From Paenibacillus sp. IHBB 10380 (GTDB lineage Bacteria > Bacillota > Bacilli > Paenibacillales > Paenibacillaceae): 64,000 bases of DNA. The stretch spans positions 3,968,001-4,032,000 of the forward strand of contig NZ_CP010976.1 of the NCBI RefSeq assembly GCF_000949425.1, given 5' to 3'. Shown piece after piece: positions 5,621 to 42,334 of this stretch. How positions within the stretch are numbered: the stretch's first letter is position 1; each line of letters opens with the position of its first letter. The translations under genes were made by a program, and so were the position numbers. Under the pieces are notes generated by a model. The model had not been told where the DNA came from. It saw nothing but the letters and a program-made list of their open reading frames with translations, and made no database searches.

Positions 5621-5827
5621 AAATCGTTCCTCCTGAGTTTGTAATAAAGCTTCCTTAATCCTCCCTATGAATATCTGATGAAATGAAATGTAAATACATT
5701 CTTTTTACATAAATTAAGACACTACTTCTAAACCTTTCTTCTAAAACATTTATGCACTAACTAATGCACTTCCAAGTGATTTATAGTAGAATGAAAGTAA
5801 GTATGTTCATTCAGAAGGAGCATTCTT

Positions 5828-6238
5828 TTAGATGGACAAATTAATATTTCTGCGCATTCCACTTACGTGTAAGTCTTTGGAAACAAAGAAATAATTCAGG
5901 TTGAGAAGCATTCTTTTTAGAAGACTTGTATTATATAATTGATGTTCTTTCGTGCTATGTAATTCGACACGGTATTGATATGATTGTTCATAAATCCCTT
6001 TACTATCTAGTTTTCCAGAGAGCTTAACCACAGAACTAGAATCTTCAATATCAAAACCAAAAATGACATTTTGTTTCATGGGTAGATCTAAATCACTTAA
6101 AAAGCATATTGCATTATCACATAATTCCATTAAAAATATAGGGCGTCGCTTGCTCATTATTTTATTTCCTGCTACTTCTCTAATGTATATATGCGCATTT
6201 AGAGAAAGATTGGCCCAAACATGAATATTGGGATTCAT
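5828..6238 (-). CDS. PilZ-like domain protein (putative)
   Basis: 136-residue protein without signal peptide. The segment from about 30 to 105 (RRPIFLMELCDNAICFLSD, then alternating hydrophobic strands) has the look of a PilZ beta-barrel with an N-terminal basic patch. The c-di-GMP motif D/N-x-S-x-x-G is not intact and the RxxxR is not clear, so ligand binding is doubtful. An internal ATG at 6157 has a better-spaced AGGA and gives a 109-residue form. It lies between the polysaccharide operon and a divergent XRE repressor, so a role in polysaccharide control is plausible but unproven. Confidence 0.45.
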   Translation of the reverse strand: MNPNIHVWANLSLNAHIYIREVAGNKIMSKRRPIFLMELCDNAICFLSDLDLPMKQNVIFGFDIEDSSSVVKLSGKLDSKGIYEQSYQYRVELHSTKEHQLYNTSLLKRMLLNLNYFFVSKDLHVSGMRRNINLSI

Positions 6239-6367
6239 GGATTCGCTTCATTCCTTTGAGATCATATTTGTTACATGGATTGAACTAAAATAAGAAATGA
6301 GGGTCCTACTTTAATTCAATCTATATGAGGTATAAAAATAATCTGATTAGGAAACTATAGTTATTAT

Positions 6368-6417
6368 CCGATACAATTCGTAACCTATTATCAATTTACG
6401 ATACAAAATGTATCATG
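6368..6417. promoter_or_regulatory. Candidate XRE operator sites
   Basis: GATACA-AAA-TGTATC at 6400-6414 is a perfect inverted repeat, and a related half-site CGATACAATT lies at 6369-6378. Both are in the divergent region between the PilZ-like gene and the XRE regulator. The spacing suits an XRE-type repressor controlling its own gene and perhaps the divergent one. The motif does not recur in the polysaccharide promoter region 5621-5827. Confidence 0.5.
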
Positions 6418-6499
6418 TCAAGCATAATTTGGGATTATCTTTTTTGTGCATTCAAAATAGAAATGGATAGCCTTAGAAGTCTAATTGGGAGGATCATTC

Positions 6500-6868
6500 A
6501 TGAATCATGGGAATCGCATAGCAGAACTACGTGAGATACGAGGGTGGACACAAGAAGATCTATCTCGTTCCATCGGCATTACAAGAGCATCACTTTCCCA
6601 TTATGAGAAAAATCGACGCAAACCTGATTTTGAGATATTAAGCAAACTTGCCGATAAATTTGGTGTTTCTATTGACTATTTAATTGGTCGAACAAACCAT
6701 ACAGAACTAGTAATGGATGACGATGTAAGAGAGTTTGTAGATAATTTAGAACTATCTGATGACAAAATTCTCGAACGCATTAATCTAACGATCGACGGTC
6801 GTAGCTTAACAGAGGAAGAAGCCAAGCGATTTATTGCTTTCGTCCGTATGGAACGCATTATGAAATAA
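6500..6868 (+). CDS. XRE/Cro-family transcriptional regulator
   Basis: 122-residue DNA-binding protein. Residues 3-60 form a helix-turn-helix of the Cro/C1 type (GWTQEDLSRSIGITRASLSH, then YEKNRRKPDFEILSKLADKF and VSIDYLIGR). The C-terminal half (DDDVREFVDNLELSDDKILE and TEEEAKRFIAFVRMERIMK) is a helical extension seen in many Bacillales XRE repressors. ATG at 6500 follows GGGAGGATC. It faces a small SinI-like ORF and lies next to the polysaccharide operon, so a SinR-like biofilm role is a reasonable guess, though the protein is not a clear SinR orthologue. Confidence 0.8.
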   Translation: MNHGNRIAELREIRGWTQEDLSRSIGITRASLSHYEKNRRKPDFEILSKLADKFGVSIDYLIGRTNHTELVMDDDVREFVDNLELSDDKILERINLTIDGRSLTEEEAKRFIAFVRMERIMK

Positions 6869-7368: not shown

Positions 7369-10300
7369 TCAGTTACCTCCGGTACGAGCTAGTTCACGCA
7401 TATTGGCTTCAAAAGCTGCAAGAAGCGCAGCTTCTCCAGTTAATCCACTCTCACGTACTTTCTCGATTTGCTGCGTCATCCGTTTATAATCTTTCGGAAT
7501 AACACGAACGAATGAATTCAAGCACTCATTCCAGTTATCTAGTATCGATTGTCCTACAGTACTCCCCGTATAAGACACATGATTCTGAATCAATACACGA
7601 AGGCTTGCTGCTTCTGCAGCATCTTCTATTCTTTCTAACAATACCATTTCAAGATTACAGTCCCTTATAAAGGTTCCTTCTTTATCGTATACATAAGCAA
7701 TACCGCCAGACATTCCTGCAGCGAAGTTACGCCCTGTTTCACCAAGTACAACGACACGTCCGCCTGTCATATATTCACACCCATGGTCGCCAACACCTTC
7801 AACAACCACCTTAACGCCAGAGTTCCGAACTGCGAACCGTTCACCTGCGATACCTCGAATATAAGCTTCGCCACTGGTTGCTCCGTAGAATGCTGTATTA
7901 CCGATAATGACATTCTCTTCCGCTTTGAAGGTAGACTTTGGTGAAGGCTTCACAATAAGCTTACCTCCAGATAGTCCTTTGCCTACATAATCGTTAGAAT
8001 CGCCTATGACTGTCAAAGTCATGCCTTTAGGAACAAAGGCTCCAAAACTTTGGCCGGCTGTACCCATGAATGTAAATTGAATCGTATTCTCTGGCAGACC
8101 CACAGCGCCGTATTTACGTGTCAGTTCACTACCTAAGATCGTACCTACGGCTCTATTTACATTAGTGATTGGAAGTACCCCTTCCACCGATGTTCCATTC
8201 TCTAAGGCAGGTGCTGCCAAATCCAGTAACTGGCGAATATCGAGTGTCTCTTCTAACTCATGGTTCTGACGCTTACTATTATAAGGTGTACTATTCTCAG
8301 GTAGCTCTGGAGAATGAAGTAAGACAGATAAGTCTACACCATGTTTCTTCCAGTGTTCCGAAGCTTGAACCGCATTCAGACAATCCGTGCGTCCGATCAT
8401 ATCTTGAACGGTACGGAAACCTAGTTCAGCCATAATTTCGCGCATATCTTCTGCGATAAATCTCATAAAATTAACCACATGAGCTGGGTCACCCATGAAG
8501 TTCTTACGAAGCTCTGGGTTCTGAGTAGCTACACCTACAGGACAAGTATCCATCTGACAGACTCTCATCATAATACAGCCTAGAGCAACTAGTGGTGCTG
8601 TTGAGAAACCATATTCCTCAGCTCCTAACAAAGCAGCTACAGCTAAATCACGACCATTAAGCATTTTACCATCGGTTTCCAGAACGACCCGATCTCGCAA
8701 GTTGTTAAGAATGAGCGTCTGGTGCGTCTCCGCAAGTCCCAACTCCCAAGGAAGTCCAGCATGACGAATAGAGCCTTGTGGGGAAGCCCCCGTTCCTCCG
8801 TCATAGCCGCTAACAAGAATAATATCTGCACGACCCTTGGCTACTCCTGCAGCAATTGTTCCTACACCGACCTCAGATACCAACTTCACGTTGATGTTCG
8901 CACGTGGATTGGCATTCTTCAAATCATAGATAAGTTCAGCTAAATCTTCGATTGAATAGATGTCATGGTGAGGTGGTGGTGAGATTAGACCTACACCAGG
9001 TGTTGATCCGCGAACTTCTGCTACCCATGGGTAAACTTTGCGACCTGGTAGTTGCCCACCTTCACCTGGCTTCGCACCTTGCGCCATCTTAATCTGAATT
9101 TCATCGGCATTAACCAAGTAATTAGAAGTAACACCGAAACGTCCTGATGCCACCTGCTTAATCGCACTCCGGCGAGAATCTCCATTGCTATCCTTAACGA
9201 AACGAGCCGGATCTTCTCCACCTTCACCTGTGTTACTCTTACCTCCAACACGATTCATCGCAATGGCGATACTTTCATGAGCTTCCTTACTGATCGATCC
9301 GAAGGACATAGCCCCAGTCTTAAATCTTCTCATAATGGATTCTACAGATTCAACTTCTTCTATAGGTACTGAACTTCCCACAGGCTTGAGCTCTAATAAT
9401 GAACGTATTGTAAGACGTTGCTCATTCTCACCTTGAACCAATTGAGCATATTTCTTATATAGCTTATAATCATTCGTTCGAACGGACTGTTGTAATAAGT
9501 GAATCGTCTGTGGATTGAACAGATGCTCTTCACCATCTTTACGCCATTGGTATTCTCCACCTGAATCGAGTTCTTTATCATTACCATCTTTATCTGTAAA
9601 TGCACGATTATGATGAGACAAAGTTTCCAAAGTTACCTCTTCAATACCGATACCACCGATCCGGGATGGTGTACGCGTAAAGTATTGATCTACAAAATCT
9701 GAACGAAGTCCCACGGCTTCAAAAATTTGCGCACCGCGATATGACTGTATCGTAGATATCCCCATTTTGGATAATACTTTAACAACACTCTTAGTAGCCG
9801 CTTTAATATAGTTCTTCACTGCTTTCTCATGGGAAATTCCACGCAACATCCCCTGCTGAATCATGTCATCTAAACTCTCGAATGCAAGATAAGGGTTAAC
9901 TGCACTAACGCCATATCCTAGCAAGAGCGCATAGTGATGGACTTCACGAGGTTCACCTGACTCTAAAAGAATGCTAATCTTCGTCCGCGTACCTTGGCGA
10001 ATGAGATGATGATGCAAGCACGATACAGCTAATAATGCTGGAATCGCTGCATTATCCTTATCCAAACCTCGGTCAGACAATATCAGAATGTTATGACCTT
10101 TATCGATAACACGATCTGCTGCTTCACAGAGTATATTCAAGGCAGTACGTAGCCCCTTCGCCCCATCGGCAGCTAAGAATAAGATCGGAATCGTCATCGA
10201 CTTAAAGCCTGGACGGTGAACATGACGAATTTTAGCGAAATCCTCATTAGATAGGACTGGTGTATGCAGACGAATATGTCGACAGCTTTCCGGTTCCGGA

Positions 10301-30368: not shown

Positions 30369-30477
30369 TGTTTATGGCATGTAGTCTTTTTCTGTTCTAT
30401 CTATCCACGTTATTCTTTGTTTCAAATTATTTATAGTATAATGGTTACAACTATATGAGATGGAAAAGAGGGAACGG

Positions 30478-31152
30478 ATGCCTACTATACTGGTTGCTGA
30501 TGACGATGCGAACATTCGCGAACTTGTCTGTTTGTTTCTACGCAACGACGGATTCGTAACAGCCGAAGCCGCAGACGGCAAGGAAGCACTGACCGTCTAT
30601 GCCTCGACGCCTGTCGATTTGGTCATACTTGATATTATGATGCCAGTTATGGATGGATGGACGTTGTGCAAGGAGCTTCGCAGGGCCAACCCTGATCTTC
30701 CGCTGCTCATGCTGACGGCTAGAGGAGAAACATGGGAGAAAGTGAAAGGTTTCGAACTTGGGACGGACGATTATTTGACGAAACCATTCGATCCGTTGGA
30801 GTTGACGGCTCGTGTTAGGGCATTACTGAAACGATACCGGATTGGCTCCACGCAGACGATCCAGTTCGGCAACGTCATCCTTGATCGGCAGACCTATAAG
30901 GTGATGAGAGGGACAGAGTCGTTCACGTTGCCGCTCAAGGAGTTCGAATTGCTGTATAAGCTCGCTGGAACCCCCGGACAAGTCTATACGCGCGAGCAGT
31001 TGATCGATCAAATTTGGGGGATCGATTACGCCGGAGATGATCGAACAGTAGACGTACATATTAAACGCCTGCGTGAACGGTTCGCGACGACACCCGATTT
31101 TCGTATCGAGACGGTGCGTGGGCTTGGGTACCGCGTTGAGGTATACGAATGA
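30478..31152 (+). CDS. OmpR/PhoB-family response regulator
   Basis: 224-residue regulator. The receiver domain has the acidic pocket D8-D10, phospho-acceptor Asp52 in LVILDIMMPVMDGW, Thr80 and Lys102 in LTKPFDP. The winged-helix domain shows VYTREQLIDQIWGIDY and RTVDVHIKRLRERF. ATG at 30478 follows GAGGGAAC. A TATAAT lies at 30437-30442 with a poor -35, which would suit an activated promoter. The next gene is its kinase (ATGA overlap). Base composition looks higher in GC than the surrounding genes. Its likely sites are the TTCATA direct repeats downstream. Confidence 0.92.
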   Translation: MPTILVADDDANIRELVCLFLRNDGFVTAEAADGKEALTVYASTPVDLVILDIMMPVMDGWTLCKELRRANPDLPLLMLTARGETWEKVKGFELGTDDYLTKPFDPLELTARVRALLKRYRIGSTQTIQFGNVILDRQTYKVMRGTESFTLPLKEFELLYKLAGTPGQVYTREQLIDQIWGIDYAGDDRTVDVHIKRLRERFATTPDFRIETVRGLGYRVEVYE

Positions 31153-32516
31153 TCAGATCCTTATATATACGTGTTGTCCTGACATTTCTAGTCTCCGTCA
31201 TCGGGGGCACGATTATTTCTTTTTTTGTGTCAACTTGGATATTTGAAGAAAAATTGAACGAAAACGCTCAAATCAACTTACGTAACTTTGGTCAAGACAT
31301 CGTCCGGATTTACAAGACCCTTCCGTTACGTGAAGCGGACTCGTTCGTAAGTGGAATGAAGCAGCTCGATTCCTATTATATTCGAATTTACGAAGCAACG
31401 GGTCAGTTCCAGTCTTACGGAAAACTTAACGGACACAAAACTGCCACTGTGACGATGGAGCAACTAAAGAAAGTATTAGATGGAGGAGTTGTTCAAGACG
31501 CTCCGAATGGTATTGCTACGGTCCTCTTAGGGTTGCCGTTGAAAACGGAAATGGGAACGAAAGCGATGTTTTTGGAAACTCTCTCCCCCCCTTCTGCCAC
31601 TTTTGTCGCAAAATGGGGATTGATCTTTGCAACCTGTTCGTTGATTGCAGGAAGCTTATTGATTCTAGTTGCCTCTGTATTTCTGGTAAGACCGATCAAA
31701 AAGCTGACAAAAGCGACCAAGCGTATAGCAGCTGGAGATTTCAACGTCAAGCTGAATATTAAGCAAACGAGTGAGCTGGGTACTTTGGCTCGCAGCTTTG
31801 AAGAAATGATGCACGATCTGCAGCAACTTGAGCAGATGCGCAGGGAATTCGTAACGAACGTGTCGCACGAGGTTCAGTCTCCGCTCACCTCGATATCCGG
31901 TTATGCTCTAGCACTCAAGCAAGTAGACCTCGCAGATCACGAACGAAGCCGTTATCTTGATATTATTATCGCTGAAGCGAAGCGGATGTCCAAGATGAGC
32001 GATAGCCTGCTAAAGCTGAGTTTGCTTGAATCGCAGTCACAGCAACTGCGGCTCGTCACGCTCAGTCTTGATGAACAAATCCGACGGGTCATCGTGGCTC
32101 TCCAGCCGCAATGGTCTGCTCGCAACATACATTTCGAGCTTGATTTACAGACCGTTAAAGTAACGGCTGATCATGACCAGTTAAATCAGATATGGACGAA
32201 TATCCTCGGCAATAGCATCAAATTTTCCGAGGATGGCGGTGTGATTAACGTAAGCATCAAACAAGATATCAAGAACGTGACAGTCCGAATATCCGACACT
32301 GGCGTCGGTATTTCCCTCGAGGACCAGAAGCGTATATTCGAGCGGTTTTTTAAGGCCGATCGTTCCCACAGTCGTAAGTATGACGGTAGTGGTATGGGAC
32401 TCGCCATCGTTAAACAGATCGTATCGCTTCATCAAGGTGACATCCGAGTGGAAAGTGAGCCCGGCCAAGGAACGACCTTCATTGTCACCTTGCCAATCAC
32501 AACGCCGACAGCGTAA
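31149..32516 (+). CDS. Membrane sensor histidine kinase
   Basis: 455-residue kinase with two membrane segments (about 8-30 and 155-180) around a roughly 120-residue extracellular sensor region that I cannot assign. A HAMP linker follows (RPIKKLTKATKRIAAGDFNV), then the HisKA motif VSHEVQSPLTSISGYA with His240, N-box NILGNSIKF, G1 DTGVGISLED, F-box FERFFKADRSHS and G2 GSGMGLAIVKQI. It overlaps the regulator by four bases. The short hydrolase-rich region beyond it is the likely regulon. Confidence 0.92.
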   Translation: MIRSLYIRVVLTFLVSVIGGTIISFFVSTWIFEEKLNENAQINLRNFGQDIVRIYKTLPLREADSFVSGMKQLDSYYIRIYEATGQFQSYGKLNGHKTATVTMEQLKKVLDGGVVQDAPNGIATVLLGLPLKTEMGTKAMFLETLSPPSATFVAKWGLIFATCSLIAGSLLILVASVFLVRPIKKLTKATKRIAAGDFNVKLNIKQTSELGTLARSFEEMMHDLQQLEQMRREFVTNVSHEVQSPLTSISGYALALKQVDLADHERSRYLDIIIAEAKRMSKMSDSLLKLSLLESQSQQLRLVTLSLDEQIRRVIVALQPQWSARNIHFELDLQTVKVTADHDQLNQIWTNILGNSIKFSEDGGVINVSIKQDIKNVTVRISDTGVGISLEDQKRIFERFFKADRSHSRKYDGSGMGLAIVKQIVSLHQGDIRVESEPGQGTTFIVTLPITTPTA

Positions 32517-32568
32517 TTAGATTCCTATTGTATAATTCGGATTGTCTAAACGCTGTCCCATATTCTCC

Positions 32569-32622
32569 ATGCTACGGCATTATGTGCAAACTTCCTTGCA
32601 TGTGACGTCGTAGCATTTTTTT
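32569..32622 (+). terminator. Terminator after the histidine kinase gene (cassette copy 1)
   Basis: ATGCTACG pairs with CGTAGCAT around an inner TGCAA/TTGCA stem, followed by seven T. It closes the two-component operon before the hydrolase promoter. Confidence 0.85.
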
Positions 32623-32627
32623 GCTTG

Positions 32628-32666
32628 TTCATACTCCATTCATATTGTCGTCACAGTGAATTCATC
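32628..32666 (+). promoter_or_regulatory. TTCATA direct repeats, site 1
   Basis: TTCATA at 32628-32633 and again at 32639-32644 (11-bp period), with TTCATC 22 bases further on at 32661-32666. Repeats on one face of the helix are the usual binding mode of OmpR-type regulators. The site precedes the first hydrolase gene by about 70 bases. Confidence 0.7.
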
Positions 32667-32683
32667 TTCGTCGTATATGCTTT

Positions 32684-32702
32684 CCTTAACGGCTCGTTAA
32701 GG
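32684..32702 (+). promoter_or_regulatory. Leader hairpin, copy 1
   Basis: CCTTAACG and CGTTAAGG form a perfect 8-bp stem with a three-base loop, between the presumed promoter and the hydrolase ribosome site. The same position in copy 3 (37927-37958) has an unrelated sequence but an even longer perfect stem. Confidence 0.6.
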
Positions 32703-32733
32703 CAGCCAAATAAACAGATGAGGTCAGGAGAAG

Positions 32734-33723
32734 ATGAGCGTGACACAACAAGAGGAAATGAAAACGAGGAATGGAACGAGAACAAATAAAGTACGAAACA
32801 TTTTGCTTAAAATAATAGGAACAATAATTATAGCAATTGTGCTTTTTCTAGCCATTGTTTTTATCGTGAATGTGATCTGCAACAAATCGGAGCAAGGTAA
32901 AATAGAATCCTATGGTCAGTCTGTAACCGTCGATGGGAAAAATATGAATGTTACCATTCAAGGAAAAGGCGAAGAAACCGTCGTGCTCCTACCTGGTTTT
33001 GGAACAGCAGCACCTGCTCTTGATTTTAGGCCGCTAATAGAAGAGCTATCACCATTTTACAACGTCGTCGTAGTTGAACCTTTTGGTTATGGATTAAGTG
33101 ATCTAACTGACAAGGAACGAAGCACAGAGAATATTGTGAGTGAAATTCATGAAGCGCTGCAGGGTCTTCATATTGATCGTTATATTCTAATGGGCCACTC
33201 CATTTCAGGGATTTACGGACTCGATTATGTGAACAAGTATCCCAACGAAGTGAGTGCATTTGTCGGGCTCGATAGCAGTGTTCCAACGCTAAGCGAGAAG
33301 AGGTTTTCATCTTCAGAAATAGAGACTGTTAAACTACTCAAAAAATCAGGTTTCTCCAGATTGCTAATGAAACCGGATACCGACGTATATGCTGAACTAC
33401 CCTATGATGATCAAACAATAGAACAAATCAGAATTCTTATGCACAAAAACATGTATAATCCCAACCTATTAAATGAAATTGAACATATGTATTCCAACTT
33501 TAAAGCAGCTGAACAGCTAACTTTCCCTCCAAATCTACCTGTCATTTTCTTTATCCAAGCGAATCACCCGGCAACGGACAGATGGATTCCCGAGCACGAG
33601 AAGCTAATAAAGGATTCTGTACATGGTGAAGTGGTGCTGCTGGAAGCAGATCATTATTTGTATCGTTCCCATTCCAAAGAAATTGCTGAAGGATTCAGGG
33701 GTTTTATGAAGGAAAACCAATAA
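32734..33723 (+). CDS. Membrane-anchored alpha/beta hydrolase, paralogue 1
   Basis: 329 residues: a basic N-terminus, one membrane anchor (about 22-48) and an extracellular or membrane-associated alpha/beta hydrolase domain. Visible elements are VVLLPGFGTAAPALDF (oxyanion loop), VVVEPFGYGLSD, nucleophile Ser156 in MGHSISGIYG and catalytic His307 in EADHYLYRSH; the acid residue is not obvious. Substrate unknown. Paralogues follow at 33888 and 35090. The ATG is only three bases from AGGAG; a GTG two codons on would be better spaced, and this ATG-x-GTG arrangement recurs in all copies. Confidence 0.85.
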   Translation: MSVTQQEEMKTRNGTRTNKVRNILLKIIGTIIIAIVLFLAIVFIVNVICNKSEQGKIESYGQSVTVDGKNMNVTIQGKGEETVVLLPGFGTAAPALDFRPLIEELSPFYNVVVVEPFGYGLSDLTDKERSTENIVSEIHEALQGLHIDRYILMGHSISGIYGLDYVNKYPNEVSAFVGLDSSVPTLSEKRFSSSEIETVKLLKKSGFSRLLMKPDTDVYAELPYDDQTIEQIRILMHKNMYNPNLLNEIEHMYSNFKAAEQLTFPPNLPVIFFIQANHPATDRWIPEHEKLIKDSVHGEVVLLEADHYLYRSHSKEIAEGFRGFMKENQ

Positions 33724-33782
33724 ATTGTTCACGCCAATTTATCCGCCAATGACGCCACAGTATTTATTAATATATTTGCTTG

Positions 33783-33821
33783 TTCATATTCAGTTCATAT
33801 TGACGTCACGGGGAGTACATT
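33783..33821 (+). promoter_or_regulatory. TTCATA direct repeats, site 2
   Basis: TTCATA at 33783-33788 and 33794-33799 (11-bp period), with TACATT at 33816. It precedes the second hydrolase. Here the cassette lacks the terminator and the clear leader hairpin, but the repeats and their spacing are kept. Confidence 0.68.
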
Positions 33822-33887
33822 TTCATTGGTTAAGATTTCATTAGCAGCAATGAAGAAAACCCAACAAACAGTTCAAGACAGGAGAAG

Positions 33888-34877
33888 ATGACAGTGACAC
33901 AACCAGAGGAAAAGAAAACGAGGAATAGATCGAAGATAAAGAAAGTGCGAAACATTTTACTTAAAATTATAGGAGCAATCGTTATCGCCATTGTTCTTTT
34001 TCTAGGTATTGTTTATATCACGAATGTGATCAGTAGTAATTCGGAGGCGAAACGAATAGAGTCTTACGGCCAGCACGTATCTGTAGACGGGAAAAATATG
34101 AATGTGTTAATTCAAGGCGAAGGCAAGGAAACGATCGTGCTTCTGCCTGGTTATGGAACAGCTACACCAGCGCTTGATTTCAAGCTGCTTATCGATGAAT
34201 TATCTCCATTTTACAAAGTTGTCGCAGTTGAGCCATTCGGTTATGGATTGAGTGATGAAACGGAAAAAGAACGAACTGCGGAGAATATCGTAAGTGAAGT
34301 TCACGAAGCTCTTCAGCAGCTCAATATTAACCGATACATGCTTATGGGCCACTCCATTGCAGGCATATACGGAGTTGATTATGTGAACAAGTATCCAGAT
34401 GAGGTAACTGCATTTATCGGAATCGATAGCAGTGTTCCAACACAACCGAGTATTACGGATGCTAAATTCCCATTAAAAACGTTTGCACTTCTCAGAAATT
34501 CAGGTCTCTTAAGATTAATGATGAAAGTAAGTGCTGATCCATATGATGGACTCGCATTTGATGATCAAACGGTAGAGCAAATGAAAATCATTTCGAATAA
34601 AAACATGTATAATCCCACGACCTTGAATGAGATGGATCATATTTATTCTAATTTTAAAGGGGCTCACGATTTAACCTTTCCTAAAAACCTTCCACTTCTT
34701 CTCTTTGTACAAGCGAATAATGAAGGTGTAGAAGGATGGATACCTCTGCATGAAGAGCAGATTAAAGACTCGGTACATGGAAAAGTAATAACCATGGATG
34801 GATCACATTATTTACACCATACCCAATTCAAAGAAATCGCTGAAAACTTCAGGGCATATATGGAAGGAATTAAATAA
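33888..34877 (+). CDS. Membrane-anchored alpha/beta hydrolase, paralogue 2
   Basis: 329 residues with the same build as paralogue 1: membrane anchor (about 22-46), VLLPGYGTATPALDF, AVEPFGYGLSD, nucleophile motif MGHSIAGIYG, and a histidine in GSHYLHH. By eye it is much closer to paralogue 3 than to paralogue 1, so the last duplication produced copies 2 and 3. CAGGAGAAG precedes the ATG. It has its own TTCATA repeats and a terminator (34925-34977), so it is an independent transcription unit. Confidence 0.85.
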   Translation: MTVTQPEEKKTRNRSKIKKVRNILLKIIGAIVIAIVLFLGIVYITNVISSNSEAKRIESYGQHVSVDGKNMNVLIQGEGKETIVLLPGYGTATPALDFKLLIDELSPFYKVVAVEPFGYGLSDETEKERTAENIVSEVHEALQQLNINRYMLMGHSIAGIYGVDYVNKYPDEVTAFIGIDSSVPTQPSITDAKFPLKTFALLRNSGLLRLMMKVSADPYDGLAFDDQTVEQMKIISNKNMYNPTTLNEMDHIYSNFKGAHDLTFPKNLPLLLFVQANNEGVEGWIPLHEEQIKDSVHGKVITMDGSHYLHHTQFKEIAENFRAYMEGIK

Positions 34878-34924
34878 GAAAAGTTGTATCATTTGGATTG
34901 TCTAAACGTTGTCCCGTATTCTCC

Positions 34925-34977
34925 ATGCTACGGCATTATGTGCAAGCTTCCTTGCATGTGACGTCGTAGCATTTTTT
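34925..34977 (+). terminator. Terminator after hydrolase 2 (cassette copy 2)
   Basis: ATGCTACG and CGTAGCAT stem with inner TGCAAG/CTTGCA pairing, followed by seven T. Confidence 0.85.
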
Positions 34978-34983
34978 TGCTTG

Positions 34984-35022
34984 TTCATACTCCGTTCATA
35001 TTGTCGTCACAGTGAGTTCATC
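34984..35022 (+). promoter_or_regulatory. TTCATA direct repeats, site 3
   Basis: TTCATA at 34984-34989 and 34995-35000 (11-bp period), TTCATC at 35017-35022, the same geometry as site 1. Confidence 0.7.
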
Positions 35023-35039
35023 TTCGTCATATATGCTTT

Positions 35040-35058
35040 CCTTAACGGCTCGTTAAGG
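35040..35058 (+). promoter_or_regulatory. Leader hairpin, copy 2
   Basis: CCTTAACG/CGTTAAGG stem with loop GCT, identical to copy 1, 31 bases before the third hydrolase start. Confidence 0.6.
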
Positions 35059-35089
35059 CAGCCCAACAAACAGATCAAGACAGGAGAAG

Positions 35090-36076
35090 ATGAGAGTGAC
35101 ACAACCAGAGGAAAAGAAAGCGAAGAATGGATCGAGGGCCAAGAAAGTACGAAACATTATACTTAAAATACTAGGAGCAATCGTAATTGCCATTGTTCTG
35201 TTTCTAGGTATTGTTTATATCACGAATGTGATCAGTAACAACTCAGAGGCGAAAAAGATAGAGCCTTACGGTCAGCACGTATCAGTAGACGGGAAGAATA
35301 TGAATGTGTTAATTCAAGGCGAAGGCAAGGAAACGATCGTGCTTCTTCCAGGTTATGGAACAGCTGCACCAGCGCTTGATTTTAAGATGCTCATCGATGA
35401 GCTATCTCCATATTACAAAGTTGTGGCGGTTGAGCCATTCGGTTATGGATTAAGTGATGGAACTGAAAAAGAACGAACCGCAGAGAATATCGTAAGTGAA
35501 GTTCATGAAGCTCTACAGCAGCTTAACATTAACCAATACATGCTCATGGGCCACTCCATTGCAGGCATTTACGGCATTGATTATGTGAACAAATATCCGG
35601 ATGAGGTAACTGCATTCGTCGGAATTGACAGCAGTGTTCCAACACAACCGGGTATGGATGCCAAATTACCTACAAAAATGTTCGGATTTCTTAAAAAATC
35701 TGGTCTCCAAAGATTAGTGGTCAAATTTGGTGGTGACCCTTATGCTGGACTCCCATTTGATGATCAAACTGTAGAGCAGATGAAAATGCTATCGAATAGA
35801 AACTCAAATAGTTCCACGATGTTAAATGAGATGGACCATATTTCTTCCAATTTTAAAGGGGCTCAAGGTTTAACCTTCCCTAAAGATCTTCCACTTCTTC
35901 TCCTTATTCAAGCGAATAATGAAGGTGTAAAAGGATGGATACCTTTGCACGAAGGACAGATCAAAGACTCGGTACATGGAAAAGTAATAACTATGGATGG
36001 CGAACATTATTTACACCATACGTTATTTAAAGAAATAGCTGAAGATATTAGAGCATTCATGAACGAAGCGAAGTAA
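35090..36076 (+). CDS. Membrane-anchored alpha/beta hydrolase, paralogue 3
   Basis: 328 residues, very similar to paralogue 2 throughout. It has the N-terminal anchor, VLLPGYGTAAPALDF, nucleophile motif MGHSIAGIYG and the histidine in GEHYLHH. It shows more change than average in the cap region (about 186-215), where the three paralogues differ most, which fits altered substrate choice. A terminator follows at 36134-36153. Confidence 0.85.
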   Translation: MRVTQPEEKKAKNGSRAKKVRNIILKILGAIVIAIVLFLGIVYITNVISNNSEAKKIEPYGQHVSVDGKNMNVLIQGEGKETIVLLPGYGTAAPALDFKMLIDELSPYYKVVAVEPFGYGLSDGTEKERTAENIVSEVHEALQQLNINQYMLMGHSIAGIYGIDYVNKYPDEVTAFVGIDSSVPTQPGMDAKLPTKMFGFLKKSGLQRLVVKFGGDPYAGLPFDDQTVEQMKMLSNRNSNSSTMLNEMDHISSNFKGAQGLTFPKDLPLLLLIQANNEGVKGWIPLHEGQIKDSVHGKVITMDGEHYLHHTLFKEIAEDIRAFMNEAK

Positions 36077-36133
36077 ATATCCTGTAAAAGTCTACTCGTG
36101 ATTTCACAGATGTGCATTAATGAAAATGAAAAG

Positions 36134-36153
36134 CCGTCCTGTGGGACGGTTTT
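36134..36153 (+). terminator. Terminator after hydrolase 3
   Basis: CCGTCC pairs with GGACGG over a four-base loop, followed by TTTT. Confidence 0.75.
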
Positions 36154-36258
36154 CCACAGTTTGTCCAATTCAGCCGGTGTCCTGCCGCATACTTTATTTC
36201 CCAGGTTTCAACCGCTCATGCTTGAATTAGGGTCTATTGATGAAAGAGAGGGATATAA

Positions 36259-37716
36259 ATGAGATTTTTTGAGATACTTTTAGTTCTATCCTGTTTCGCT
36301 TTACTCGTAAATCTATTGTTTATTAAAAGAAGCACAAAGAAAACAGGAGTGGCTCTATGTACAGGAAGTAGCGTTATATTGGTAGTTCAGTTGTTGGTTG
36401 AGGGATACAGATGGCAGTTGCTTTTGGTATATATCATGACGGCTTTATTCATACTCATCGTTTCATTCAGGCATTCCGAAAAGATGGTGAATCTAAAAAT
36501 AGGGAAGTTGTTGAAATATAGTTTATCTTCCCTAATCGTCATTCTGCTAATTGGTTCTACCGTCTTGTCTGTATACTTACCTGTTTTTGATTTGCCGAAG
36601 CTTGATGGCCCAGAGAAAGTGGGTACTCAAACATTTCATTTTACGGATCAAAACAGAGATGAAGTCTTAACTGAAGATCAAAGCGATAAGAGGGAGTTAA
36701 TGGTTCAAGTCTGGTACCCTACTGAAAATAGAAATAACAACAAGCGTGAAACTCTTTTTCCAAATGATAAAGAAATGTTCAAAAAGTATATTCAGAGCTT
36801 CTCTGCTTCTTTAAAGCTGCCTGACTTTGTGCTCGATTACTGGAAGTATAATAGAACCAACTCTTATGAAAATGTAGAAATATTGCCTTCTACAAGTCCT
36901 TATCCCTTGGTACTGCTATCTCATGGCATGGGAACCAGTAGAGTTCTACATGCATCACAGGCAGAGAATCTGGCCAGTCATGGGTTTATCGTGGTCACCA
37001 TCGATCATACGTATAGCACCTTTGCTACCCTTTTCCCGGATGGACGTGTAACGGATTATAAAAAAAATACGACTACACTAGATGATCGTACAAAAACAGG
37101 TAATATATGGACGAAAGACGTGGAGTTTGTAATCGATCAAATCGAAAAGCTGAATTCAGGTGCAATCGAAAGTCAATTTAAAGGGAAGATCGATTTAAAT
37201 AACATAGGCGCGATGGGGCATTCTTTTGGGGGTGCAACCGCGTTTAATGCAACTTATTTAGATCAGAGAATCAAGGCCGGGGTCAATATGGACGGGTCAC
37301 TATATGAAGTGGAAAATAGAGAGGATATAAACAAGCCGTTTATGTTCATGAGATCGGGAAGTTTTAAAGACTGGTTAGTCAATTTTGAAAATGATAGAAA
37401 TTCGGATAATGAAGTGAATAAATTTCTTTCAGATGAGCTGCACATTATGAAAAATGTTATCGAACATGGGGGAAATGTGATTTATGTAGAAGGAACACAA
37501 CACTTCAATTTCACGGACCTTCAATTCTATTCGGAGTTGATTAAACTCACGGGAATAACAGGAGATATAAATGGTAAAAGAGGATCACGCATCGTAAACC
37601 AATATGTACTCGATTTCTTTAACAAACAACTGAAAGGAACGGATGGAAATCTGATTCAGGGGCCAAATGACATGTACCCAGAGGTGAAATTTATAGAACC
37701 GGGAGACCTCGACTGA
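36259..37716 (+). CDS. Membrane alpha/beta hydrolase, PAF-acetylhydrolase / dienelactone hydrolase-like
   Basis: 485 residues. The first 115 hold about four membrane segments; the rest is an alpha/beta hydrolase resembling platelet-activating-factor acetylhydrolases. Seen: LVLLSHGMGTSRVLHA (oxyanion loop), VVTIDHTYSTFA, nucleophile in GAMGHSFGGATA, acid candidate NMDGSLY and His in GTQHFNFTD. GAGAGGG precedes the ATG. It has no TTCATA repeats in its promoter region, unlike its neighbours, but is followed by promoter cassette copy 3. Esterase or phospholipase-type activity is likely; the substrate is unknown. Confidence 0.82.
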   Translation: MRFFEILLVLSCFALLVNLLFIKRSTKKTGVALCTGSSVILVVQLLVEGYRWQLLLVYIMTALFILIVSFRHSEKMVNLKIGKLLKYSLSSLIVILLIGSTVLSVYLPVFDLPKLDGPEKVGTQTFHFTDQNRDEVLTEDQSDKRELMVQVWYPTENRNNNKRETLFPNDKEMFKKYIQSFSASLKLPDFVLDYWKYNRTNSYENVEILPSTSPYPLVLLSHGMGTSRVLHASQAENLASHGFIVVTIDHTYSTFATLFPDGRVTDYKKNTTTLDDRTKTGNIWTKDVEFVIDQIEKLNSGAIESQFKGKIDLNNIGAMGHSFGGATAFNATYLDQRIKAGVNMDGSLYEVENREDINKPFMFMRSGSFKDWLVNFENDRNSDNEVNKFLSDELHIMKNVIEHGGNVIYVEGTQHFNFTDLQFYSELIKLTGITGDINGKRGSRIVNQYVLDFFNKQLKGTDGNLIQGPNDMYPEVKFIEPGDLD

Positions 37717-37811
37717 TAATGTACGACTGAGTAGAGTGAATTCGGGGTTGGATGTAACGATGCCTTCAACTGTCCATTCGGATTGTCTAAACGTTGTTAC
37801 CCGTATTCTCC

Positions 37812-37865
37812 ATGCTACGGCATCATGTGCAAGCTTCTTTGCATGTGTCGCCGTAGCATTTTTTT
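37812..37865 (+). terminator. Terminator after the PAF-AH-like gene (cassette copy 3)
   Basis: ATGCTACGGC pairs with GCCGTAGCAT, followed by seven T. Relative to copies 1 and 2, the right arm has GCCG where they have GTCG, which improves pairing. Confidence 0.85.
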
Positions 37866-37870
37866 GCTTG

Positions 37871-37909
37871 TTCATACTCCGTTCATACTGTCGTCATAGG
37901 GAGTACATC
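37871..37909 (+). promoter_or_regulatory. TTCATA direct repeats, site 4
   Basis: TTCATA at 37871-37876 and 37882-37887 (11-bp period), TACATC at 37904-37909. It precedes the beta-lactamase-like gene. Confidence 0.7.
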
Positions 37910-37926
37910 TTCGTCGTATAAGCTAT

Positions 37927-37958
37927 GTTTAATGGCTAGTTTAAAGTAGCCATTAAAC
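37927..37958 (+). promoter_or_regulatory. Leader hairpin, copy 3
   Basis: GTTTAATGGCTA and TAGCCATTAAAC form a perfect 12-bp stem with an eight-base loop. It occupies the position of the CCTTAACG stem in copies 1 and 2 but has a different sequence, which suggests selection on structure. Confidence 0.62.
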
Positions 37959-37976
37959 CAATGAGGACAGGAGAAG

Positions 37977-40109
37977 ATGCGCGTGAAACGAAGTGAGGTA
38001 ATGAAAATGAGGATGGGCACAAAAACAGGGAGAAAACGGACTTCAATCGCCGCGTTAACCCTAGTATTAACCATGCTGGCTCCAATGTCTGCGATGGCCG
38101 CTCCGGCTACGAGTAACAGCACTCTTACTTATGATGCAACAAAGAAAATAGTTGCTGAGAAAGCCAAGATACTAACAGAAACTTACGGTACTACGAGTCT
38201 GCAATATGCGCTCATCGATGGTGGAGAGATTGTGGTCTCCGGTCAAGCAGGCAAGAATGATATAAACGACAAGGTACCTCTAACGTCTGATACGATCTAT
38301 GGCATAGGATCAACCAGCAAAATGGTGCTTACAGCCGCTGTTATGAAGCTTGTTGACGAAGGAAAGATTGATTTGGATCTGCCTGTTGTGAACTATTTAC
38401 CTGATTTTAAGATGAAAGACAACCGCTACCCACAGATTACACCGCGCATGCTGCTGAATCATTCCTCCGGTCTTCTAGGCACCTCAAGCAATAATGCAAC
38501 ATTGTATGGAGATAATGATACTTACTCACATGATACTTTTTTAGAGCAATTGGCGATTCAAAACTTGAAGGCAGATCCAGGAGCATACTCAGTATATTGT
38601 AACGATGGTTTTACGCTAGCTGAGATTCTGGTCGAGAGAGTTAGCGGCATGGGCTTTACTGCATTTATTCACAAATATTTTACTGCGCCTCTGGGTATGG
38701 ACCATACGAAAACACCGCAGGATCTTTTGGATCCAGCGAAAATGGCGGGGATTTATTCCCCTTTGTATGAGGGACAACTTCCAAAAGAAAATTATAACAT
38801 CATTGCTAGTGGAGGCATCTACTCCACAGCTGAAGATCTCGCCAAATTCTCGCAAATCTTCACGGGACAGGTCGAGGGCATTCTTTCTAGTAAGTCAGTA
38901 GAAGCTATGGCACAAGAAGAATATAAAAGAGGCATGTGGTCAGAGGATAGCGATACGTCTATCTCTTTCGGATTAGGGTGGGATAGTGTGAACTTGTTCC
39001 CATTTAACGAATACGGCATCAAGGCGGTTACAAAGGGGGGAGATACCATATCGTATCATTCATCATTAGTGGTGCTCCCGGAATACAACATGGCTGCAGC
39101 GGTTACCTCTTCAGGTGGTTCAAGCGCAAAAAATCAATTCATTGCGAGTGAACTGCTGCTCCGTGCACTTCAGGAGAAGAATATTATTATAGAACGGAAG
39201 CCGGAAAAATCATATGGTGTGCCTTTAAAGGCAGATATACCGAAGGAAATATCCCAGTATGCAGGTATTTATAGTGGTGGTTCAGGTAAGCTAATGAAGG
39301 TAGAACTGAATGCTGCCGAACAATTGTCTGTAACCACACTTACAGCTCCTAACAAGCCTAATCAAAAGTATACGTATACGGCTGATGGTTCTTTTGTGAA
39401 CGATGAAGGCACAGAAAAGTTGAAATTCGTTGTGGAGAAGAATGGGCGCACCTACTTGTGGTCCCGTTCATATATATCCGTACCGGGGCTTGGACAGTTA
39501 GCTTTCTCAGAATATAATGCAGAGAAGCTTGAAGTGAGTGAATTATCTCAGGAGATTAGCACCTCATGGGAAAAGCGTGAAGGCAAAAAATACTACTTGA
39601 TGAATGAGAAATATACATCAACGTTCTATCTCAATGTTACACCAATCATAACTATTCATTTCCTTAAAGAGGTTCCAGGCTATGTCTCGAATCATAAAAT
39701 TACTGGAGCAAACGAAGCGGTGAATCAACTGCAAATCCCTGGCATGGCTGGTCGTGACACGAAGGAAATCAATTTCTTCCAGAAGAATGGATTGGAGTAT
39801 GTTACGTTAGGAGGTAACGTATACGCTAGTGAGGAACTTGTAAAACCACTCCATACGGGTACACAATCTTCAACAACGATCCAAGCGGACGGCTATGCCA
39901 AATGGTTTTCAGTGCCTGCGGCTGCCAAAGGAAAGGTTATGACAGTTAAAATGCCTTCGAATAGCTCCTTTGCAGTATATGATCAAGCAGGTATTTGTAT
40001 TAACCACACCGTGGTCACCGGTAAGAACCAGGTCTTATTACCAGAAAACGGTAGAGTCGTATTTGCAGGTGAAGTTGGCTCCAAGTTCACTGTTTCATTG
40101 AAAAAATAA
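37977..40109 (+). CDS. Secreted class C beta-lactamase-family serine hydrolase
   Basis: 710 residues. A signal peptide ends near residue 41 ([12 protein letters not shown]). The beta-lactamase/penicillin-binding-like domain covers about 50-395: nucleophile motif STSK (Ser112, Lys115), second motif YCN (207-209) and third motif KGG in [12 protein letters not shown]. The remaining 310 residues are beta-rich and unassigned. Such enzymes may be esterases, D-aminopeptidases or beta-lactamases. The start ATGCGCGTG overlaps the cassette ribosome site. It carries TTCATA site 4, so it probably shares regulation with the alpha/beta hydrolases. Confidence 0.87.
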
Positions 40110-40128
40110 ATACGAGCTTGTCTAAGAG

Positions 40129-40173
40129 GCTGTCCCTAAGGTCATTACTGACCTTATGGGACAGCACTTTTTT
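40129..40173 (+). terminator. Terminator of the beta-lactamase-like gene
   Basis: GCTGTCCC and GGGACAGC form the outer stem, AGGTCA and TGACCT the inner one, followed by seven T. From here to 40519 (about 345 bases) I see no gene; the stretch is AT-rich and holds the nucleotidase promoter and an imperfect tandem repeat of CATTAAATAA near 40270-40290. Confidence 0.88.
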
Positions 40174-40519: not shown

Positions 40520-42334
40520 ATGAATACAAAAAAATGGCTAACATCACTAACTCTTACCCTCAGTTTGCTAATCGGTTCAGTTGGAACAGTTGCTGCAAAC
40601 GGTACTACAACTACTACTGATACACAACCTACAGGTAAGCACATTACAATCCTACATACGAATGACATGCACGCTCGGGCAGTAGAGGCTTCCCCCGCTC
40701 TGGGTTTTGCAAAGCTCGCAGGAATTATAGATAGTTACCGCAGTAAGAATCCGAATACACTCTTATTAGATGCAGGTGATGCTGTTCACGGTACAACCTT
40801 TGCTACTTTAGTAGAGGGTGAAAGCGTTGCCACTGTAATGAAAGAAATGGGATATCAAGCGATGGTCCCAGGTAATCACGAATTCAATTATGGATATCAA
40901 AGACTAGTAGAACTATCTAAAATCATGGGGTTCCCTGTGCTCAGCGCTAACATCAAAAAGAAAGACGGTAGTCGTCTTTTTGATCCCTATTTAATTAAAG
41001 AAGTCGATGGTGTGAAAGTGGGCATTATTGCGCTGACCACTCCAGAAACAGCATATAAGACAAATCCCAAAAATGTAGAGGGCTTGAAATTCACAGACCC
41101 TTCAGCTGAGGCTAAGGTATTCGTTGATGAGCTACGTGATAAGGTCGACGTGATTGTCGTTATAGGTCACCTTGGACAAGATGAATCCAGCACAGATACC
41201 AGCTTCAAAGTAGTAAAAGAAGTTCCTGGTATTGATGTATTCATTGACGGACACAGTCACACTGTACTGGAAAACGGCTTGCTCTCAGACAATAATACGC
41301 TCATCGCAAGTACGGGTGAATATACAGAACATTTAGGTGTTGTTGATTTATGGGTGGATAGTGGTAAGGTGACGAAGAAGACAGCTACGCTCATTGATGA
41401 AAAAGAAGCTGTAAACGTGAAGCCAAATGCGAAGATCGCCACCTTGGTAGACTCCATCTTAGCGAAGCAAGAACCTCTTCTGAAAGAAGAAGTTGGAACT
41501 ACACCCGTGAAGCTTGAAGGAACTCGCGAGAAGGTTCGTGCAAGTGAAACGAACTTAGGGGATCTAATTACAGATGCTATGCGTGATATTAGTAGCTCTG
41601 ATGTCGCTATCACGAATGGCGGTGGAATCCGTACCTCCATTGATGCAGGTACAATTACCAAAGGCGGTGTGATCACAGTCCTTCCGTTCGGTAATCAAAT
41701 CGTAACCCTCAATGTAAGCGGAGCTGATCTTAAAGCTGCTCTTGAGAACGGCGTCTCTGATTATCCAGAACCAAAAGGCGCTTTCCCACAAGTGTCTGGT
41801 CTAAGCTTTCAAATTGATCCATCACAACCCCAAGGTAGTCGCGTCCATTCTGTCATGGTTGGAAGTAAAGCATTGGTTCTAACAGCTACCTACAGCCTAG
41901 CAACGAATGACTTCATGTCTGTTGGTGGTGACGAATACACGATGTTCAGTAAATATACACAGGCCGGAATGTACGGTTCGTTAGATGAAGCATTGATCAA
42001 ATTCATTAAAAAGAATAAAACGATTAGTACAGAATCGGCAGATCGTATCACTGAAGGAAAACTTGCTATCGTAGAACCCACACCTGAGACTAAACCAACA
42101 AAACCTGTGACACCTACACCGAAGCCAGAAGTTAAGCCCGTTCCTACTCCTAAACCTGAAGTGAAACCCGCTCCAGTTAAGGACACTAAGGTCCATGTGG
42201 TTAAAGCAGGAGATACACTTTATAGCATTTCTAAGAAATACAATACAACATGGCAAGTATTACGTGACCTTAACCACCTAAAAAATGCCCATTGGATATA
42301 TCCAGGTCAAAAGATTACACTTTCTGCAGCCTAA
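40520..42334 (+). CDS. Secreted 5'-nucleotidase / UDP-sugar hydrolase with LysM
   Basis: 604 residues. A signal peptide (about 1-26) is followed by a metallophosphoesterase domain (ITILHTNDMHAR, LLDAGDAVHGT, VPGNHEFNYG, VVIGHLGQDE, DGHSHTVLE) and the 5'-nucleotidase C-terminal domain (NLGDLITDAMR, TNGGGIRTS). A Pro/Lys-rich linker with PTPKPEVKP repeats leads to one C-terminal LysM that should hold the enzyme on peptidoglycan. It probably salvages phosphate and nucleosides outside the cell. AGGAGG is 12 bases from the ATG, longer than usual. Confidence 0.92.
   Translation: MNTKKWLTSLTLTLSLLIGSVGTVAANGTTTTTDTQPTGKHITILHTNDMHARAVEASPALGFAKLAGIIDSYRSKNPNTLLLDAGDAVHGTTFATLVEGESVATVMKEMGYQAMVPGNHEFNYGYQRLVELSKIMGFPVLSANIKKKDGSRLFDPYLIKEVDGVKVGIIALTTPETAYKTNPKNVEGLKFTDPSAEAKVFVDELRDKVDVIVVIGHLGQDESSTDTSFKVVKEVPGIDVFIDGHSHTVLENGLLSDNNTLIASTGEYTEHLGVVDLWVDSGKVTKKTATLIDEKEAVNVKPNAKIATLVDSILAKQEPLLKEEVGTTPVKLEGTREKVRASETNLGDLITDAMRDISSSDVAITNGGGIRTSIDAGTITKGGVITVLPFGNQIVTLNVSGADLKAALENGVSDYPEPKGAFPQVSGLSFQIDPSQPQGSRVHSVMVGSKALVLTATYSLATNDFMSVGGDEYTMFSKYTQAGMYGSLDEALIKFIKKNKTISTESADRITEGKLAIVEPTPETKPTKPVTPTPKPEVKPVPTPKPEVKPAPVKDTKVHVVKAGDTLYSISKKYNTTWQVLRDLNHLKNAHWIYPGQKITLSAA

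Follow-up and report, generated by a model that had tools for sequence, protein, structure and literature searches.

The window analysed here is a 64,000-nucleotide stretch of the forward strand of Paenibacillus sp. IHBB 10380 (NZ_CP010976.1, positions 3,968,001-4,032,000). The system of interest is a block at 30478-40109, all of whose genes lie on one strand: an OmpR/PhoB-type response regulator, a membrane sensor histidine kinase, three anchored alpha/beta hydrolases (AB1, AB2 and AB3), a PAF-acetylhydrolase (PAF-AH)-type gene and a secreted class C-fold serine hydrolase (BLC). Open reading frames (ORFs) and domain profiles bear out the gene calls of the first-pass annotation, which had named the OmpR-type regulator, the kinase, three paralogous alpha/beta hydrolases and the class C-fold hydrolase. 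A regulator with receiver and winged-helix domains adjoining a HisKA/HATPase kinase is the make-up of an OmpR/PhoB-type two-component system. We suggest that this pair activates envelope hydrolase genes through an operator of four half-sites, a reading that we consider the best explanation of the sequence evidence as a whole and to which we assign a probability of about 0.78.

The three AB genes and the BLC gene are each preceded by an exact TTCATA-N5-TTCATA pair, and the four pairs begin where the first-pass annotation placed them (Table 1). TTCATA is present in 65 copies on the two strands of the window, and among spacings of 0-14 bases only N5 occurs, four times. Taken alone and with up to two mismatches, the pair is weak evidence: 22 matches were found against 14.2 expected, a number reached in three of 100 shuffles. 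The third half-site reported 22 bases on is real (GTCACA, GTCACG or GTCATA), but a count of three is too low, as a fourth, missed at first, lies 33 bases on (TTCATC, TACATT or TACATC). The operator consensus is TTCATA-N5-TTCATA-N5-GTCAYN-N5-TWCATC with an exact 11-bp period, followed after N9 by a -10-like TAnnnT; the fourth half-site of site 2, TACATT, departs from TWCATC. Four TTCAT copies at 11 bp with at most four mismatches in total are confined, within the 64 kb, to the four promoters (the scan returned seven rows, three being the sites shifted by one repeat, and 20 Markov simulations returned six rows in all). The putative targets are thus preceded by direct-repeat operators within the 10-11-bp range of OmpR/PhoB-type systems.

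The -10 stands in a fixed register with the operator. Of 49 operator rows with at most two mismatches, 48 have TAnnnT at offset 48, the single miss being a one-repeat-shifted reading of an operator in genome G007 that is also counted in register. Over 52 unique operator sequences (sister sites, described below, included), the flank from -80 to -20 averages 0.09 bits and the core 1.41 bits, and the T, A and T of TAnnnT reach 1.9, 1.8 and 1.9 bits; the core and half-site values are partly set by the search pattern, of which the -10 was no part. A simple consensus scan found no sigma-70-type -35/-10 pair at the four window sites. An operator adjoining a -10 at fixed distance, with no -35, is the arrangement of OmpR/PhoB-type promoters: PhoB takes the place of the -35 at its promoters, and the PhoB/PhoP pho box and WalR-type direct repeats are 11-bp repeats that replace the -35 beside a -10. 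Given the fixed register and the lack of a sigma-70-type promoter in that scan, the regulator most likely stands in for the -35 at operator-led promoters.

A search of the whole 5.79-Mb genome for TTCATA-N5-TTCATA, as the first-pass annotation had proposed, gave 11 exact sites against two for the backward control. With the four-half-site pattern (at most three mismatches) five sites are found, the four in the window and one at about 3.092 Mb. This fifth operator, about 0.9 Mb away and not mentioned earlier, precedes a class C-fold paralog that is 78% identical to BLC. The six other exact pairs were rejected as operators: four are inside long ORFs, one is in a 148-residue ORF and one is in a gap but in the wrong direction, and half-sites 3 and 4 are absent from them by eye (that is, on direct reading of the printed sequence). 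AB1, AB3, BLC and the distal BLC copy share an upstream stretch of 206-225 bp at 86-94% identity (AB1 compared with AB3 94%, with distal BLC 88%, with BLC 86%), and alignment shows the terminator-like repeat at its upstream end to be common to all four; AB1 and AB2 are only 74% identical over a shorter stretch. The AB and BLC proteins fall into separate families and yet their genes carry one promoter cassette, which starts with the terminator-like repeat, includes the operator and runs into the first codons; copying or conversion of the promoter has thus gone on without regard to the coding region behind it. Between the proteins, AB3 shares 82% identity with AB2 and 61% with AB1. AB3 combines an AB1-like promoter (34909-35090, aligned with 32531-32734) with an AB2-like coding sequence, and in a relative, locus L037 of genome G008, the operator of the AB3 ortholog is AB2-like by eye, which together with the AB3 mismatch suggests promoter conversion.

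The arrangement recurs in related genomes. We searched 48, of which 37 are of the same genus (the window's own included), and 22 of the 37 have a kinase ortholog of at least 67% identity. The first-pass annotation had looked to conservation of the block, and all 22 kinase-bearing genomes carry both the operator (a 40-base pattern, at most three mismatches) and the AB family (at least 53% identity, scored independently of the operator pattern), compared with two and none, respectively, of the 15 others; the backward-read control was found in 0 of 48. In the two exceptions (G014 and G020), three-mismatch sites lie directly beside a sister kinase of 42-43% identity, before a PAF-AH-type gene. Fisher tests, which ignore relatedness, give 3e-8 (operator) and 1e-10 (AB family). 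When 30 of the 37 genomes are placed on an rpoB tree (15 of the 22 with the kinase and all 15 without, operator states entered by hand), the kinase changes state independently seven times and the operator is concordant in seven of seven (p 0.016), or in six or seven of seven if the weak exceptions are counted as operator-positive. Outside the genus the 48-genome search gave only two matches, with three mismatches each: one in G042, which looks like chance, and one in G048 that precedes a permease-like ORF. A separate scan added five records with the same arrangement: P. terrigena, P. profundus, Paenibacillaceae CAVE-418, Cohnella endophytica and P. nasutitermitis. Some relatives appear damaged: matches that change frame suggest that L037 has a frame-broken AB copy (5748-6745) and PAF-AH-type gene (8066-9517), and L057 in G023 a frame-broken kinase gene (8251-9584), unless these are assembly errors.

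The 22 genomes hold 40 distinct operators (tallied by hand from 41 rows, two of which are one overlapping site); 34 precede AB genes, five precede BLC genes and one is at a contig end. Twelve of the 40 are remote from the kinase gene, 11 of these preceding AB genes and one a BLC gene: one in the window's genome (G000), three in G001, one in G007, three in G015 (on other contigs), one in G026 (13 kb away), two in G028 and one in G034. The regulon of envelope hydrolases that the first-pass annotation proposed for this pair is therefore supported by comparison across genomes, but it is not only local, as had been supposed. No transporter or target-modification gene was found among the operator-led genes examined. 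The AB genes of a 59-row tree fall cleanly into 43 that carry an operator (0-3 mismatches) and 16 that lack one (nine or more), a division that takes three changes on the tree; L146 and L115, cut short by the script, were left out, and near-identical cores were entered once. In this set the operator lies 99-137 bases before the start codon, except in two rows (62 and 64 bases) whose aligned start is uncertain. Among the 45 AB matches of at least 53% identity in kinase-bearing genomes, 34 have an operator, one lacks an upstream end and two are second genes of operator-led operons (G022 and G036); the remainder are taken up below.

Table 1. Features of the two-component block, in window coordinates
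Feature	Position	Strand	Evidence and remarks
OmpR/PhoB-type response regulator	30478..31152	+	Response_reg 105.9 bits, Trans_reg_C 84.4 bits; ORF
Membrane sensor histidine kinase	31149..32516	+	HAMP, HisKA, HATPase_c; overlaps regulator stop codon
Terminator-like inverted repeat (TGCTACG...CGTAGCA, then T run)	32570..32622	+	By eye; upstream end of promoter cassette
Operator 1, TTCATA/TTCATA/GTCACA/TTCATC	32628..32666	+	11-bp period, pattern scans
-10-like TATGCT	32676..32681	+	N9 beyond half-site 4 of operator 1
AB1, anchored alpha/beta hydrolase, 329 aa	32734..33723	+	Abhydrolase_6, Abhydrolase_1; family alignment
Operator 2, TTCATA/TTCATA/GTCACG/TACATT	33783..33821	+	-10-like TAAGAT 33831-33836
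AB2, anchored alpha/beta hydrolase, 329 aa	33888..34877	+	82% identical to AB3
Operator 3, TTCATA/TTCATA/GTCACA/TTCATC	34984..35022	+	-10-like TATGCT 35032-35037
AB3, anchored alpha/beta hydrolase, 328 aa	35090..36076	+	N-terminal helix 14-54
PAF-acetylhydrolase-type membrane hydrolase	36259..37716	+	PF03403 121.1 bits, cut-off of 20 reached
Operator 4, TTCATA/TTCATA/GTCATA/TACATC	37871..37909	+	-10-like TAAGCT 37919-37924
BLC, secreted class C-fold serine hydrolase, 710 aa	37977..40109	+	PF00144 195.2 bits

The start of the regulator at 30478 is preferred by eye to one at 30460 because of its ribosome-binding site. In the kinase, H240 is invariant over 17 aligned orthologs, and the sensor segment (residues ~39-149) models as a PDC/Cache-like domain. 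S156 and H306 (AB3 numbering) are invariant in 20 aligned members of the AB family. The STSK and YCN motifs and the signal peptide of BLC were read by eye, and BLC is a near full-length relative of the solved chain 9sn1_A (1072 bits); a literature search on 9sn1 returned no paper evidently about this structure, by title. Elsewhere in the window's genome, two adjacent partial BLC matches (69% and 46%; G000:C1:1944761-1946313) look like a broken class C-fold gene. Directly 3' of the block, at 40520-42334, is a 5'-nucleotidase-like secreted protein with a LysM-like C-terminal end by eye; the gap preceding its gene contains no operator. The loop of the terminator-like repeat is too long for the simple scan. 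Upstream of the regulator gene the best four-copy score is eight mismatches of 20, so that there is no operator and autoregulation by a four-half-site operator was rejected. A conserved leader hairpin was likewise set aside: stems of at least seven pairs occur in 22% of 49 leaders compared with 1.2% in shuffles, and being so uneven, they are no part of our explanation. Inverted repeats of differing sequence do lie near the likely transcript start in the window (32684-32702 and 37927-37958, stems of 8 and 12 pairs), and such repeats are present in only part of the relatives' leaders.

Several observations weigh against the proposal that this pair drives the operator-led genes. The operator pattern was written from kinase-adjacent sites of most of the same genomes, and the figure of 22 of 22 is therefore partly a matter of construction; the remote operators, the -10 and the number of hydrolases are not fixed in this way. 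Much of the co-occurrence is the gain or loss of a linked block. Because linked loss explains part of it, we lean mainly on the remote operators. No hydrolase gene or operator adjoins the kinase gene of G015, G028 or G034, and all the operators of these genomes are remote. Eight of the 45 AB genes have no operator and are not second in an operator-led operon. Within the block the PAF-AH-type gene has no operator of its own, the gap after AB3 giving a best four-copy score of nine mismatches. The structure model of the kinase is poor overall (mean pLDDT 54.9), and substrate and signal are judged from fold. Finally, the recognition-helix region of the regulator, DDRT(V/I)DVHIKRLRERF, is nearly unchanged in aligned orthologs, and the sister regulators examined have almost the same helix, so the code does not single out this regulator.

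The system may be one branch of a wider family. We surveyed 95 diverged kinase loci (sisters, and named records from the separate scan, loci with fewer than 300 bases beyond the kinase being dropped; the set includes near relatives, and L170 and L191 probably come from one genome). A TTCATA-like pair with a period of 11 lies within 350 bases 3' of the kinase in 25 of the 95, the kinases being 31-45% identical; control periods at the same loci gave none at 9, 10, 12 or 13 and at most five at any other in the range 6-19. TAnnnT follows N9 beyond the second half-site in 19 of the 25 pairs, against a background of 1.5%. The pairs of L177 and L212 fall outside the -10 register and are probably chance, and four more loci fit by eye, L159 and L160 with four half-sites and the -10 at 48, L208 and L216 with the pair one repeat earlier. 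The scan was run after a few cases had been seen and is exploratory, its controls being the other spacings and the -10, which the pattern did not contain. A scan of 24 sister or more distant kinase loci detected no four-half-site array at 22 of them. Beside the 42-43% sister kinase of L159 (G014) and L160 (G020) stands a separate TTCAT operator of four half-sites, some 315 bases upstream of a PAF-AH-type gene; at L163, L188, L198, L206, L209 and L214, for example, a pair, N9 and TAnnnT stand just 3' of the kinase, in front of genes of the S41 peptidase, RND, FtsX, GT2/GtrA or zinc-peptidase kinds. In the scanned subset the next genes encode S41 peptidases, AcrB-type transporters, FtsX-type permeases, GT2/GtrA proteins, zinc peptidases, a carboxylesterase and PAF-AH-type enzymes. 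Over 198 genomes of the order, TTCAT-N6-TTCATA-N9-TAnnnT has about 298 matches compared with about 35 for the backward control (hand tally). We read 29 sites, drawn from 30 loci that are not a random sample (L295 had none near its centre); nine are within 400 bases 3' of the gene for a related kinase, and at 28 an ORF begins no more than 105 bases downstream. Upstream of the regulator gene, an 11-bp pair is found at 11 of 90 kinase loci compared with 0-7 at other periods, a weak excess that the window does not share; some sister systems are perhaps autoregulated.

In the window, half-sites 3 and 4 hold the register of the single sister pair and the perfect TTCATA pair is an addition 22 bp upstream, so that the window operator looks like a doubled version of the sister arrangement. 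We put the chances at about even that TTCAT(A)-N5-TTCATA-N9-TAnnnT without a -35 is the code of a large YclJ-like family in Paenibacillus and its allies, often placed 3' of the kinase, with the window as a doubled-operator branch whose cassette has been copied before unrelated hydrolases to give an expanding arsenal composed of hydrolases only.

Our model for the window system is as follows. The membrane kinase would read a signal outside the membrane, perhaps the antibiotic or lipid suggested by the first-pass annotation, through the PDC/Cache-like domain that its model predicts, and would phosphorylate the regulator, as its PhoB-type family suggests. Regulator dimers would then occupy the four half-sites in tandem, tandem occupancy and cooperativity being our reading of the observed geometry. 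The proximal pair (half-sites 3 and 4), which ends nine bases before the -10, would replace the absent -35, and the perfect TTCATA pair, which lies two helical turns upstream of it, may serve as a second, strong docking pair. The membrane-anchored alpha/beta hydrolases and the secreted class C-fold hydrolase would be switched on near the kinase and elsewhere in the genome, and the set may grow as the cassette (terminator, operator, 5' leader and first codons) is copied to new genes. Judged by fold and anchoring, the probable targets of the enzymes are ester or amide bonds of lipids, lipopeptides or wall material on the outer face of the membrane. Identifying the substrate more closely from the fold was tried and abandoned, many alpha/beta hydrolases matching the AB models equally well. 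We infer the direction of control, the binding, the signal and the substrates.

The regulon could be as we describe and yet serve the inducible detoxification of ester or amide antibiotics, the hydrolase copies forming an expanding arsenal. The presence of multiple hydrolase copies under one promoter suits such a role, as does the analogy with BlrAB/CreBC, which control beta-lactamases through TTCAC-N6-TTCAC according to PMC3660660 and PMC4689548. We nevertheless regard it as unlikely, though the most probable of the alternatives: BLC falls outside the class C beta-lactamase family (bla_class_C 40.8 bits, cut-off 415) and is far under the cut-offs of such families among the matches listed (25 of 34 families), the AB models match many esterase-like folds, and the operator-led genes include no transporter or target-modification gene. 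That the operators are real but served mainly by one or more sister regulators instead of the adjacent pair is improbable in our judgement. The near-identity of the recognition helices in the sister regulators examined would allow it, and similar arrays of four half-sites occur in two sister systems, with a single pair in others; against this, the 15 kinase-negative genomes keep more distant kinase homologs, yet 13 have no operator and two have it only beside a sister kinase. Repression by the regulator, relieved by the signal, would account for an operator that covers the -35 place, but we think it quite improbable, as the simple scan detected no sigma-70-type promoter at the four sites and the fixed N9 to the -10 suits an activator acting in place of a -35, like PhoB. 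The notion that the motif is a leftover of tandem duplication with no regulatory meaning draws on the 86-94% upstream likeness of AB1, AB3, BLC and distal BLC, which does mean that the sites within this genome are not independent, and is very hard to sustain when flank conservation across genomes falls to 0.09 bits while half-sites and -10 persist, non-homologous AB and BLC genes carry one operator, the -10 keeps register in 48 of 49 rows and a similar pair adjoins 25 of 95 sister kinases.

Activation by the adjacent pair remains our preferred reading, and it makes of a motif spotted by eye a regulon that can be tested, its members named, its promoter geometry fixed and point-mutation controls at hand. 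Should the wider code prove true, sequence immediately 3' of the kinase gene would allow the output of many uncharacterised or orphan sensor kinases of Paenibacillus and its allies to be predicted, and the near-identical recognition helices would raise the question of how sister systems with one DNA code avoid cross-talk.

Among the papers listed by literature searches for the motif or the gene set, none is about this regulon, judged by title. The alpha/beta hydrolase fold of the AB proteins is shared with the membrane phospholipase A PlaF (PDB 6i8w), the fourth Foldseek match, which has an N-terminal membrane helix; the TM-score is 0.57-0.60 at 15% identity, many other alpha/beta hydrolases match as well, and 6i8w is not among the matches listed in a second AB fold search. 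A literature search on PlaF returned no paper. The pho box and WalR-type repeats resemble the window operators as 11-bp direct repeats that replace the -35 near a -10, and differ in half-site sequence, in the doubling of the operator and in the target set. By analogy, the logic of the window system is closest to that of the Gram-negative pairs BlrAB and CreBC. As PMC3660660 and PMC4689548 describe them, these PhoB-like pairs use the cre/blr-tag, TTCAC-N6-TTCAC with an 11-bp period; a homologue of the tag lies between the kinase gene and creD in S. maltophilia, and BlrA controls beta-lactamases. The window system shares with this account a PhoB-like two-component pair and the 11-bp direct-repeat period, whereas its operators have TTCAT in half-sites 1 and 2 and lack the TTCAC-N6-TTCAC tag, it has four half-sites in place of two, and its main targets are anchored alpha/beta hydrolases. 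Its regulator scores 191.2 bits, under the CreB model cut-off of 273. YclJK of Bacillus subtilis is likewise an OmpR-type pair, and YclJ is reported to use TTCATA repeats. PMC7961091 names yngABC and ykcBC as YclJ targets. The TTCATA-type pairs of sister loci L214 and L198 lead GT2-type genes (L214 also a GtrA-type gene), which are of the sort found in the YclJ regulon, whereas the operator-led genes of the window's system are AB and BLC hydrolases and do not form a regulon of glycosylation genes of the yngABC/ykcBC type. In its workings the window system resembles BlrAB/CreBC and YclJK but shows the tested membership features of neither; we class it as an OmpR/PhoB-type regulon whose operator is doubled and portable.

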